The notes under the pieces are model-generated. The model was not told the origin of the DNA and ran no database searches. It saw only the letters and a list, made by a program, of their open reading frames with translations. A stretch of DNA of 64,000 nucleotides from Aureimonas sp. AU20 (GTDB lineage Bacteria; Pseudomonadota; Alphaproteobacteria; Rhizobiales; Rhizobiaceae), in assembly GCF_001442755.1 (NCBI RefSeq), contig NZ_CP006367.1, positions 930,001 to 994,000 on the forward strand. The letters are read 5' to 3'. Positions within the stretch are counted from its first letter, which is position 1; each line of letters begins with the position of its first letter. Both the position numbers and the translations under genes were made by a program. Shown one piece after another: positions 39,503 through 44,375 of the stretch.

Positions 39503-40405
39503 TCACTGCGCCGGGGCAGGGGCCGCCGGGGCAGCGGGGGCGGGCGCTGCCGGTGCGTCGGGCAGCGGAGCCGGCGGGGCCGGAGCGTTGCCGGGGTTCT
39601 GCGCCTCGGCCGGGGTCGGCGCCTGCGGCGGTGCCGAGGTCGCGTTGCCGCCGGTCACAGGCACGGCGCCCGATGGCGGGGTGGTCGGCGTCGCGCCCGT
39701 GGTGGCGTCGGTCGTGCCGGCGCCCTGTGGCTGCGTCACCGGATCGTTGCCCACCGTGCCGGTGTTTGTGGTGGTGGCCGGATTGGTCGGGGCCGGCGCG
39801 GCGGCGTCGCCCTCGGCCGGGGCCTCGGCGGCCGCCTCGCTCGCGCCGGCATCGGGCGCGGGCGGGGGAACCGGGCTGTCGGCCAGCGTTCCGAGATAGG
39901 CCAGGAGATCGGCCCGCTCCTGGTCCTTCGGCAGGCCGGCAAAGCCCATGGCCGTGCCGGAAATGTACTGCTTGGGGCCGTGCAGGAAGTGGTTCAGGTG
40001 ATCCCAGTCCCAGGCGACGGTCTTGCCCTTGGAGAACTCGGTCATCGCCGCGGAATAGGAGAAGCCTTCGTGCGCGGCCATGGGCCGGTTCACGATGCCC
40101 CAGAGGTCGGGACCGACCTTGTTGGGGCCGCCCTTCTCGCCGCTATGGCAGGCCTGGCAGCGCTTGAACACGGCCGCGCCCGCCTCGGCGTTGGCGGTCT
40201 GCATGATCTTGCCGACCGGCGTCACCTCGTTGGCAGCCGGCGCCGCGCCGCCGCTAGCGGTCGGCTCGGCGGCGGTGATGGCGAATCCCGGCTTTTCCGG
40301 CGCTTCGGAATGGAAGATGGCTTCGGCCAGAAGGCTGCCGCCGAACAGAACGAACACGGAGCCCAGAATGGCGCCGAAGATCTTATTGGCCTCGAATGAA
40401 TCCAT
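39503..40405 (-). CDS. Membrane-anchored cytochrome c (CycM/cytochrome c552-like) with long Pro/Ala-rich tail
   Basis: 300 aa. An uncleaved N-terminal helix (about residues 8-30) anchors a class I cytochrome c domain: haem motif CQACH at 83-87 and the axial Met153 in ISGTAMGFAG. After residue about 178 comes a tail of some 120 residues made mostly of Pro, Ala, Thr and Gly, which is absent from most relatives. It is probably an electron carrier feeding a terminal oxidase on the periplasmic face. It diverges from kdsB-pheA, as cycM does in rhizobia. Confidence 0.88.
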   Translation of the reverse strand: MDSFEANKIFGAILGSVFVLFGGSLLAEAIFHSEAPEKPGFAITAAEPTASGGAAPAANEVTPVGKIMQTANAEAGAAVFKRCQACHSGEKGGPNKVGPDLWGIVNRPMAAHEGFSYSAAMTEFSKGKTVAWDWDHLNHFLHGPKQYISGTAMGFAGLPKDQERADLLAYLGTLADSPVPPPAPDAGASEAAAEAPAEGDAAAPAPTNPATTTNTGTVGNDPVTQPQGAGTTDATTGATPTTPPSGAVPVTGGNATSAPPQAPTPAEAQNPGNAPAPPAPLPDAPAAPAPAAPAAPAPAQ

Positions 40406-40817
40406 GTTGCTGGGCGGCTCCCTCTCCAACCGGCCCGGCGACCGGCGAACACTGCGGACACGTCGTGTCGGATGCCGCAACCCCAGCCGCTTCGCAGCTG
40501 TTGCCCCGGCCTCCGTAATCTCATTTCCGTTTCGGGCGGGAAAAGAGAGTTTCTCCTTTCCCTCGAAACGCATCGGGGCTTTTGCCGTGTGACGGCACCC
40601 CCTATAAGCCCCCTGGCGTGTCTTTCGATAGCTCGGGAGGCCGGCTGGTTCGCCCTCTCGCGCCAGCCTTCGGTCCCCCAGCTTTCCAAAGGCACGCAAA
40701 GTCTGGAAGCGTTCTGACATTCCGTCCGGAATGGATCAAGCGCCCACCTGTCACAGCTCCGTACTATCTCGCGCATTCGGGCGCGAGATGGCGCGCATTC
40801 GGGCCGGAATCCTTGTC
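40406..40817. other. 412-bp divergent control region between cytochrome c and kdsB-pheA
   Basis: No gene recognised. It contains a 14-base dyad ATTCCG-TC-CGGAAT at 40720-40733 and a 9-bp hairpin at 40766-40789 close to the kdsB start. In-frame ATGs at 40731 and 40788 exist but give extensions unlike the KdsB family. Confidence 0.5.
40766..40789 (+). repeat. Hairpin and short direct repeat before kdsB-pheA
   Basis: Perfect 9-bp stem ATCTCGCGC / GCGCGAGAT with a 6-base loop, ending 28 bases before the chosen ATG. Its GCGCATTCGGGC core (40771-40782) is repeated at 40794-40805. It may be an operator or an mRNA-leader structure. Confidence 0.5.
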
Positions 40818-42422
40818 ATGTCCACACTCGTCCTCATTCCCGCGCGCCTTGCCTCGACGCGCCTGCCCAACAAGCCACTGGCCGACATCGCCGGCGCGCC
40901 GATGATCGTGCGCGTGGCGGAGCGGGCGCGCGACGCCGCGATCGGCCGCGTCGTGGTGGCGACCGACAGCGCGGAGGTGCTGCGCGCGGTGGAGGCGGCG
41001 GGCTTCGAGGCGGTGATGACGCGCGCCGACCACCCGTCCGGCTCGGACCGCATCTTCGAGGCCTTGCGGGCGATCGACCCGGTCGGCGAGGTGGACGTGA
41101 TCGTCAACCTGCAAGGGGATCTGCCGACCATCGAGCCGGACACGGTGCGCGCCGTGCTGAAGCCCTTCGAGAACCCGGCCTGCGATATCGCGACCGTCGT
41201 GGTGGAGATCGCGACCGAGGCCGACGCGAAGGATCCCAATGTCGTGAAGCTGATCGGCACGCCGAACGGCGACCGCCGGCTGAACGCGCTCTATTTCACC
41301 CGTGCCACCGCCCCGACGGGCGAGGGTCCGCTGTTCCACCATGTCGGCATCTATGCCTATCGCCGCGCCGCGCTGGAGCGCTTCGTGGCGCTGCCGCCTT
41401 CGCCGCTGGAGATGCGCGAGCGGCTGGAGCAGCTGCGCGCGCTGGAAGCGGGGATGCGGATCGACGCCGAGATCGTCGATGCCGTGCCGCTCGGCGTCGA
41501 CACGGCCTATCAGCTGGAGGAAGCGCGCCGCGCCTTCCGGCCGCCCACGCGCACCGGGCGCATCGCCTTCCAGGGCGAGCGCGGCGCCAATTCCGACATG
41601 GCCTGCCAGACCATGTATCCCGGGCTCGAGCCCTTGCCCTGCCCGAGCTTCGAGGACGCCTTCGCCGCCGTGCAGAACGGCGCGGCCGATCTCGCCATGA
41701 TCCCGATCGAGAACACGCTGGCGGGGCGCGTCGCCGACGTTCACCATCTCCTGCCCGCCTCGGGCCTGCATATCGTCGGCGAGTTCTTCCTGCCGATCCG
41801 TTTTCAGCTCATGGCCAAGCGCGGCACGAAGCTCTCGGAGATTTCCGAGGTGCACAGCCATGTCCATGCGCTCGGCCAGTGCCGGGGCATCATCCGGCGC
41901 AATGGCTGGAAGCCGGTGGTTTCGGGCGACACGGCCGGCGCCGCGCGCATCGTCTCGGAAATGGAGGAGCGCAACGTCGCCGCCCTCGCGCCGCGTCTGG
42001 CGGCCGAGCTCTACGGGCTCGACATCCTGGCCGAGAATGTCGAGGACGCCGAGCACAACGCCACGCGCTTCGTCGTTCTCACACGCAAGGAGGCGGGCAA
42101 GGCGCTCTGGGCCGCCAACAACGGCCAGCGCGTGGTGACGACCTTCGTGTTCGAAGTGCGCAACGTCGCGGCCGCGCTCTACAAGGCGCTGGGCGGCTTT
42201 GCCACCAACGGCGTCAACATGACCAAGCTCGAAAGCTACCAGCTGGAAGGCAAGTTCGTGGCGACGCAGTTCTATGCCGATATCGAGGGCCACCCGGAGG
42301 ATGTCGGCGTCGCCCACGCGCTGGAGGAACTGGCCTTCTTCTCCAAGCGCCTCGCCATTCTCGGCGTCTACCCGGCGGCGGCCAACCGGCCCGACATTCC
42401 AGCGCCCGCTATCGGCGAATAG
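40818..42422 (+). CDS. Fused CMP-KDO synthetase (KdsB) and prephenate dehydratase (PheA)
   Basis: 534 aa, one open frame. Residues 1-240 are a complete Kds[41 protein letters not shown] and the end [15 protein letters not shown]. Residues about 246-534 are a complete Phe[33 protein letters not shown] and an ACT domain with [16 protein letters not shown]. Only PPTRTG lies between them, with no stop and no plausible internal start. KdsB activates KDO for lipopolysaccharide; PheA makes phenylpyruvate. In rhizobia the two genes are separate neighbours. The ATG at 40818 gives the normal KdsB start. Confidence 0.88.
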
Positions 42423-42987: not shown

Positions 42988-43962
42988 TCAAATGGCGGCA
43001 ATCGCACTCTCTTTGCCTTCGCAAAAGGCACGGATCAGATGGTGCGCGATGGCGAACGGCGCTGGCAGCGTGATGCCCTCCTCGTGCCGCTCCTCCAGCA
43101 TGGCCCGCACCGCCTCGCGGCTGAACCAGCGGCAGTCCTCCAGTTCCAGCCCGTCGAAATGGATCTCCCGCGTCAGCGCATGGGCCATGCAGCCGATCAT
43201 CAGCGAGCCAGGAAAGGGCCAGGGTTGGGACGAGTGGTAGGCGACCGCGCCGACCATGAGCCCGGCCTCCTCGAAGGTCTCGCGCCGCACCGCGTCCTCG
43301 ATCGTCTCGCCCGCCTCGATGAAGCCGGCGAGGCAGGACCACATCTTCTCGGGAAAATGCGGCTGGCGCCCGAGCAGGCAGTTCCCCGCCCCGTCATGCA
43401 CCAGCATGATCGACACCGGGTCGGTGCGCGGAAAGATCATGTGGTCGCAGGCCGTGCAGCGCCGCCGAAAGCCTGCCGAATCGGAGACGGTGGGCGAGCC
43501 GCAACGCCCACAGAAGCGCGCCGAGCCGTGCCAGTTCAGGAGATGGGCGGCCTGGGCCAACTGGCCTTCGGTGTCCGCGTCGAGCGCGGCCCGCATGGCG
43601 AGTGCGCGCAGATCGAGCATGGGCAGGCCGCCCAGCCTTCGCTCCACGCCTTCGCCCTCAAGGCCGAGCGCGGCGATCCGCTCCGCTCCCAGTCGGGCGG
43701 CAAGGCGGGGTTGGCCCTCTGCCGTGTGGCCGAGCAGGATCTCGATCTCGGTCTCTCCGAGGATCGCCCGGGCGGCGGGCAGGTCGAACAGCGCATCCAC
43801 CGCCTCGCCCGCCGCGCGCGCCAGCCAGAGCCCGTCCGCCTGGATGTAAAGGCCGGCGTCTTCGTGCGCGAGCGCCTCTTCAAGCGTCGCCTCGCCCCTC
43901 GTTTCCCCGTCGCGGACGAGGCGGTTGCCGGCAAAGCCGAGGCGAATGGGCTGATCTGTCAT
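42988..43962 (-). CDS. nudC: NAD(+) diphosphatase / NAD-capped RNA decapping Nudix enzyme
   Basis: 324 aa. A zinc ribbon (Cys151, Cys154, Cys169, Cys172: CGRCG and CTAC) is followed by the Nudix box (GFIEAGETIEDAVRRETFEE then AG) and by SQPWPFPGSLM at 245-255, the signature separating NudC from other Nudix enzymes. It hydrolyses NADH/NAD+ and removes NAD caps from RNA. The ATG overlaps the stop of the HIT gene reading in the same direction order (ATGA with 43959). Confidence 0.93.
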   Translation of the reverse strand: MTDQPIRLGFAGNRLVRDGETRGEATLEEALAHEDAGLYIQADGLWLARAAGEAVDALFDLPAARAILGETEIEILLGHTAEGQPRLAARLGAERIAALGLEGEGVERRLGGLPMLDLRALAMRAALDADTEGQLAQAAHLLNWHGSARFCGRCGSPTVSDSAGFRRRCTACDHMIFPRTDPVSIMLVHDGAGNCLLGRQPHFPEKMWSCLAGFIEAGETIEDAVRRETFEEAGLMVGAVAYHSSQPWPFPGSLMIGCMAHALTREIHFDGLELEDCRWFSREAVRAMLEERHEEGITLPAPFAIAHHLIRAFCEGKESAIAAI

Positions 43963-44375
43963 GACAGGCTTTCTTGCAGGCGGGCGACGGTCGCCTCGGC
44001 CTCGAACGGGGAATAGGCTTGGCGCGAGCCGAACCCCCAGACGGGGGCGGGCCAGTTCGCATCGCCCGAGGAGCGCGCGACGACATGGAGATGGAACTGC
44101 CGCACCACATTGCCGAGGGTGGCGATGTTCATCTTTTCGGCGCCGGCAAGCGTCTTTAGCGCCTGCGCCACGCGGCAGGCCTCGGCGTCGAGCTGATGCC
44201 GGTCGGCTTCATCGAGGTCGAAAAGCTCGGTGATGCCCGGGCGGCGCGGCACGAGGATGGCCCAGGGCCAGCGCCGGTCGTTCATTAGGAGAAGCTGGGA
44301 CAAGGGCAGGTCGAGGACAGGAAACGTGTCGGCGCGAAGGCGCGCGTCGAGTTCGTGATCGGATGCGGCTTGCAT
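43959..44375 (-). CDS. HIT family protein
   Basis: 138 aa. The histidine triad region reads RQFHLHVVARSSGD: two of the triad His are kept and the first is Gln, a form common in this rhizobial subfamily. The family contains nucleotide hydrolases and transferases. NudC follows on the same strand in reverse order of coordinates, so the two are probably transcribed together (43962 overlaps this stop). Function beyond nucleotide binding is unknown. Confidence 0.85.
   Translation of the reverse strand: MQAASDHELDARLRADTFPVLDLPLSQLLLMNDRRWPWAILVPRRPGITELFDLDEADRHQLDAEACRVAQALKTLAGAEKMNIATLGNVVRQFHLHVVARSSGDANWPAPVWGFGSRQAYSPFEAEATVARLQESLS

Follow-up and report, generated by a model that had tools for sequence, protein, structure and literature searches.

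Analysis of 64,000 nucleotides from Aureimonas sp. AU20 (NZ_CP006367.1, positions 930,001 to 994,000; the whole stretch is referred to here as the window) revealed that positions 40818-42422 encode a complete KdsB, the CMP-KDO synthetase, joined directly to a complete prephenate dehydratase and its ACT region. We propose with good confidence that this fused kdsB-pheA gene specifies a bifunctional two-domain enzyme, which would have originated through in-frame loss of the kdsB stop and the pheA start and then been locked in.

One reading frame encodes both enzymes

On the + strand the frame is open back to at least position 40731 and ends with the TAG at 42420-42422, and the ATG at 40818 was chosen as the start, in agreement with the family, giving a protein of 534 residues. 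The features of the gene and of its flanks are as follows:

40818..42422, + strand: fused kdsB-pheA gene, 534 aa, 57.6 kDa, stop TAG
40818..41537, + strand: KdsB half, CMP-KDO synthetase, residues 1-240; NF003948 match; aligns with 1vh1 and 3k8d
41532..41561, + strand: junction, residues 239-248; no stop and no ATG, GTG or TTG
41562..42092, + strand: prephenate dehydratase catalytic part, Pfam PDT, residues 249-425; motifs GANSD, PIENT and N-x-TRF
42123..42392, + strand: ACT region, about residues 436-525; AALYKALGG...LESY; alignment to 6vh5 and 7alz
39503-40720, opposite strand to the fused gene: flanking gene with a cytochrome c domain
42988-43962, opposite strand to the fused gene: flanking gene with a NUDIX domain
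43959-44375, opposite strand to the fused gene: flanking gene with a HIT domain

Scans for Rfam families, tRNAs, promoters and terminators around the fused gene gave nothing above chance.

Both halves scored above the NCBIfam cut-offs for their equivalogs, in agreement with the initial annotation, which had read the frame as a complete KdsB (1-240) followed by a complete prephenate dehydratase with an ACT domain. The KdsB profile NF003948 matched residues 1-240 with 395.2 bits (cut-off 281), and the prephenate dehydratase profile NF008866 matched residues 245-524 with 462.1 bits (cut-off 359), the PheA half as a whole extending over residues 245-534. TIGR00466 also placed the fused protein among the KdsB enzymes (208.3 bits, cut-off 155.2), and Pfam recognized CTP_transf_3 at residues 5-215 and PDT at 249-425. 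A separate Pfam ACT match was absent from the fused protein at E≤0.001; the ACT region was identified through the NF008866 match together with alignment to the solved PDT chains 6vh5 and 7alz.

Comparison with known enzymes revealed counterparts for each half. With most of the length aligned, the PheA half scored 437.9 bits against 6vh5, presumably the Brucella prephenate dehydratase, and 277.2 bits against 7alz, while residues 1-237 of the KdsB half aligned with 1vh1 and 3k8d, which we take to be E. coli KdsB, with active-site motifs in common. All of these chains are free-standing: 1vh1 and 3k8d come without a PheA domain, and both 6vh5 and Komagataeibacter GqqA (7alz/7am0) come without a KdsB domain. 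The E. coli-type P-protein (chorismate mutase/prephenate dehydratase) likewise couples a prephenate dehydratase-ACT unit to an extra N-terminal enzyme domain, but its partner, unlike KdsB, catalyses the step just before it in one and the same pathway. NF007910, the profile for that bifunctional enzyme, gave the fused protein 149.9 bits against a cut-off of 577 and aligned only from profile position 101, placing the fusion outside that family.

The active-site motifs, which had been described as kept in both halves, were found in the window's protein, and their key residues are present in all 21 copies sampled from the genus. These residues include K19 and D228 (the aspartate of GVD) in the KdsB half and the T, R and F of N-x-TRF, presumably the catalytic motif of prephenate dehydratase; LESY of the ACT region is present in 21 of 21 copies as well. 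QGD lies at residues 99-101 of the window's protein. PMC3149649 describes aspartates D95 and D219 of A. aeolicus KdsB as metal-binding, and their motif positions suggest that they correspond to QGD and GVD of the fused protein.

The strongest synonymous-site conservation of the fused gene lies in the KdsB half, at 41313-41387 (codons about 166-190). Among the 21 genus sequences the minimum observed/expected value of the 15-codon windows there was 0.42 (mean 0.79, sd 0.11); the same codons in 21 split relatives showed no such conservation (0.82, mean 0.87, sd 0.07). A frame-shifted ORF at these positions was not conserved in length.

The fusion is present throughout the sampled Aureimonas genomes

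Comparison with sister genomes revealed that the fusion is not peculiar to the window's genome. Fused and split calls were made by direct reading of the junctions, open-frame length being left unused as it takes long values at split loci too. All 21 genomes sampled from the genus carry the same uninterrupted frame, with a full-length match and 0 stops at the junction; A. ureilytica, A. phyllosphaerae, A. altamirensis and A. fodinaquatilis are among the named isolates with the fusion. The copies in genomes G019 and G020 are 92% identical to the window's fused protein, and a cluster of 15 member sequences (P0001) is represented by a 534-aa protein 99% identical to it. Stop flags raised for two copies (L014 and L015) proved, on reading of the junctions, to mark the terminal stop of the gene. 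The initial annotation had named a sequencing or assembly error at the junction as the main alternative. The same open frame recurs in every one of the 21 genus genomes and in cluster P0001, with purifying selection on either side. This rules the error out for practical purposes; no observation spoke in its favour, and we give it next to no probability.

The halves and the linker differ in how they evolve. Across 11 close pairs dN/dS was 0.06-0.23 for KdsB, 0.03-0.22 for PDT and 0-0.08 for ACT, and 0-1.2 for the 12-residue linker, values that point to purifying selection on both halves and drift of the linker.

The fused gene is the only gene with a Pfam PDT domain in the window's genome, and no second PheA match was found in any of the 21 genus genomes. 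It is also the sole kdsB match in the window's genome and the sole strong KdsB match in 20 of the 21. In one genome (G006) an additional, free-standing KdsB, 56% identical, accompanies the fused one (L023, G006:C2:627633-628415), and weak partial second KdsB matches of 29-40% identity occur in G010, G015, G018 and G019. Genes for kdsA and a waaA-type KDO transferase domain were found elsewhere in the window's genome, which implies a need for KdsB. Together with the sole pheA and kdsB matches, this suggests that both activities should come from the fused gene, unless some unrelated enzyme provides them.

Public Aureimonas entries name the fused frames by one half: P0003 is called KdsB, and P0016, P0019, P0020, P0021 and P0025 are given as a shortened PheA. 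The PheA-only models are 294-304 aa long and begin inside the fused frames, three of them at CTG. Such half-name entries are an annotation trap, hiding the other half of the fusion.

Outside the genus kdsB and pheA are separate neighbours

Outside Aureimonas, the split relatives that were read have kdsB immediately before pheA, both on one strand and separated by a short gap, and the earlier description of the two genes as separate neighbours in related Hyphomicrobiales held. A stop lies between them in 126 of 126 non-genus genomes, counted among the listed matches that span both genes in the same frame, a count that could hide a weak spanning match. The samples comprised 199 family, 397 order and 385 class genomes, which overlap. 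The 126 distinct genomes derive from the family, order and class match lists (39 + 59 + 28), and 127 loci were read for them (27 + 57 + 43, with G296 counted twice), all 127 with a stop. Genomes giving two separate kdsB and pheA matches fall outside this junction count, and a fusion whose linker is very long might go unnoticed in them. Among the best 80 named loci, the nine from Aureimonas were all fused and the other 71 all split, with pheA in the frame of kdsB at 61 of them and in a different frame at 10. In the genus of A. glaciei (g88) the two genes are adjacent in different frames in all six genomes sampled and are therefore split; the A. glaciei PheA (P0037) is that of G1095 at 100%.

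At split loci 3-135 bases (median 30) separate the kdsB stop and the codon equivalent to PheA residue 246, and in several of these relatives pheA begins with a sequence like MPxxKTNRISFQG past the kdsB stop. The separate genes of Hyphomicrobiales (Mesorhizobium, Rhizobium, Fulvimarina and the A. glaciei genus) thus resemble the fusion in their orthologous enzymes, order and strand, but differ from it in having a stop and an own pheA start, or different frames, and in specifying two proteins.

Two further sets of records were noted. A record titled Bacillus subtilis SK6B4 (L108, JAHREI010000001.1) has kdsB-pheA identities and a gap equal to those of Pseudochrobactrum kiredjianiae (L107) and is probably mislabelled. 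Of 140 plasmid records with a match, six cover at least 80% of the query, and one of these six (H2) is annotated as two proteins.

The junction has lost the stop, the gap and the pheA start

In the fused copies the C-terminal helix of KdsB (LxxAR) leads into PheA through about 11 variable residues, running into a sequence like xPxxRTxRIxFQG. The distance between LxxAR and IxFQG is identical in 20 of 21 copies; L015 is one residue longer, so its codon at the start position may not correspond. Mean pairwise identity among the genus copies falls to 0.35 at residues 239-244, compared with 0.76-0.80 elsewhere. Residues 237-249 of the window's protein are free of stops, no in-frame ATG, GTG or TTG occurs between GVD (226-228) and IAFQG (249-253), and where split relatives have the PheA start, the window's gene reads CGG (41538-41540). 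Across the fused copies this old start position, eight codons before IxFQG, reads ATG once (L006), CTG five times, GAG six times and another sense codon nine times, ATT being found in one of 21. The stop-loss fusion proposed in the initial annotation therefore describes part of the change: the kdsB stop is indeed absent, but the pheA start (in 20 of 21 copies) and the intergenic gap are gone as well.

A continuous frame could still yield two proteins, through internal initiation near the end of kdsB or proteolysis of the linker, although we regard this as rather improbable. An in-frame ATG, GTG or TTG does occur between GVD and IxFQG in 13 of 21 copies, in 12 of the 13 at codons of the KdsB GVD loop, but the remaining eight copies, the window's included, have none, and no start position is common to all 21. 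The CTG (5/21) and ATT (1/21) codons at the old start position can act as weak starts, and five NCBI entries (the PheA-only models named above) start within the fused frame; three of these, P0016, P0020 and P0025, rely on CTG. Poor conservation of the linker sequence would also suit two proteins. In the 15-codon window at the start of PheA (codon 246) synonymous diversity is on the low side (11th percentile), whereas it is average to high (53rd to 98th percentile) in the 15-codon windows starting at codons 224-244. Across the 21 genus copies, synonymous diversity at the junction did not clearly point to a conserved internal start. A Shine-Dalgarno contrast was uninformative, the longest match being 0-4 in fused and 0-6 in split loci (138 of 155 split rows, with the start mis-set in four).

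Origin of the fusion

A KdsB tree of 66 rows placed all 21 fused rows on one branch (support 98/93). In the PheA tree, two fused rows (L021 and L022) grouped with long-branched split rows apart from the other fused rows, and 0% of bootstrap trees united all fused rows, yet a single clade was still not rejected (AU p 0.094); the program warned of long branches meeting in this tree. A quick joint tree spoke neither for nor against one origin. We consider it most likely, judging from these comparisons, that the fusion arose once, before the sampled species diverged. The PheA halves of L021 and L022 (genomes G007 and G015) are 63-64% identical to the window's, compared with 76% for their KdsB halves, and lie on a long branch, suggesting either fast evolution or replacement of the PheA half.

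We propose that a single in-frame event removed the kdsB stop, the gap and the pheA start site, and that decay followed. With the PheA start decayed, neither half could be expressed apart from the other unless one of them were rebuilt, and such a ratchet would be the likeliest reason that the fusion stayed.

A search for independent fusions scored 8000 candidates, of which 120 were listed. At least 20 further listed rows with part or all of both domains lie outside P0001-P0008 (P0009-P0015, P0017, P0018, P0022-P0024, P0026-P0031, P0067 and P0102), and ten of those 20 were scanned with profiles. P0011 and P0013 scored above both cut-offs; both begin at KdsB profile position 14, and the KdsB of P0011 has an apparently frameshifted stretch. 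P0014 and P0029 fell below one of the two cut-offs and P0102 below both, and P0012, P0015, P0018, P0027 and P0028 hold the C-terminal part only of KdsB. The two-domain rows scanned outside P0001-P0008 are possible recurrences of the fusion. Three listed rows (P0009, P0010 and P0067) join a KdsB without its end to a PheA without its start and are likely chimeric assemblies.

Proposed working and significance of the fused enzyme

We infer that ribosomes would translate the fused gene as one stable protein of ~58 kDa, in which each domain would act on its own substrate and keep its own oligomeric contacts, and that the fusion would fix a 1:1 dosage of two tethered enzymes. To our knowledge, KdsB and PheA belong to unrelated pathways, which makes their union odd, and have no intermediate in common, and therefore channelling does not explain their pairing. 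The compounds that the two enzymes handle are labile in both cases: CMP-KDO decays with a half-life of 34 min (25 °C) according to PMC3149649, and prephenate is unstable. CMP-KDO synthetases are dimers (PMC3149649); GqqA, a PDT-ACT relative, is described in PMC8192741 as a dimer with L-Phe at the interface. The spacer of ~11 residues would thus need to accommodate both KdsB and PDT-ACT dimers. The fusion survey PMC4921024 counts prephenate among unstable compounds; its authors explain metabolic fusions by bottlenecks in a pathway, by toxicity, by the need to control competing pathways and by the assembly of complexes. In a term search, KdsB was absent from its main text. A publication on the KdsB-PheA pair was not found in the open-licence literature.

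Another possible reason for keeping the fusion is adaptive co-regulation, in which ACT-bound phenylalanine, or the state of either oligomer, alters KdsB activity and so ties LPS core synthesis to aromatic supply. The initial annotation had likewise seen the fusion as binding lipopolysaccharide precursor activation to phenylalanine synthesis and its feedback domain. Several observations are consistent with this reading, which we nevertheless hold to be unlikely. The ACT region is intact and dN/dS spans its lowest range there, but PheA feedback alone would predict such constraint. GqqA, with the same ALYKALGG...LESY stretch, binds L-Phe in its C-terminal ACT region (PMC8192741), and KdsB has been called rate-limiting for LPS synthesis (PMC3149649); our analysis gave no computed link from the Phe site to the KdsB active site. 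Twenty of 21 copies share one interdomain spacing despite sequence drift, yet split relatives manage without a fusion. More doubtful still is the specific proposal that the ACT region of the fused enzyme, sensing phenylalanine, would control CMP-KDO formation and couple outer-membrane growth to the supply of aromatic amino acids. We favour a ratchet acting on neighbouring genes over adaptive co-regulation, with an added benefit of co-regulation being possible.

Enzyme fusions are often taken as a sign of functional linkage. A fusion of enzymes without a common intermediate, kept in 21 of 21 Aureimonas genomes, offers a clean natural test of function against neutral lock-in of neighbours.
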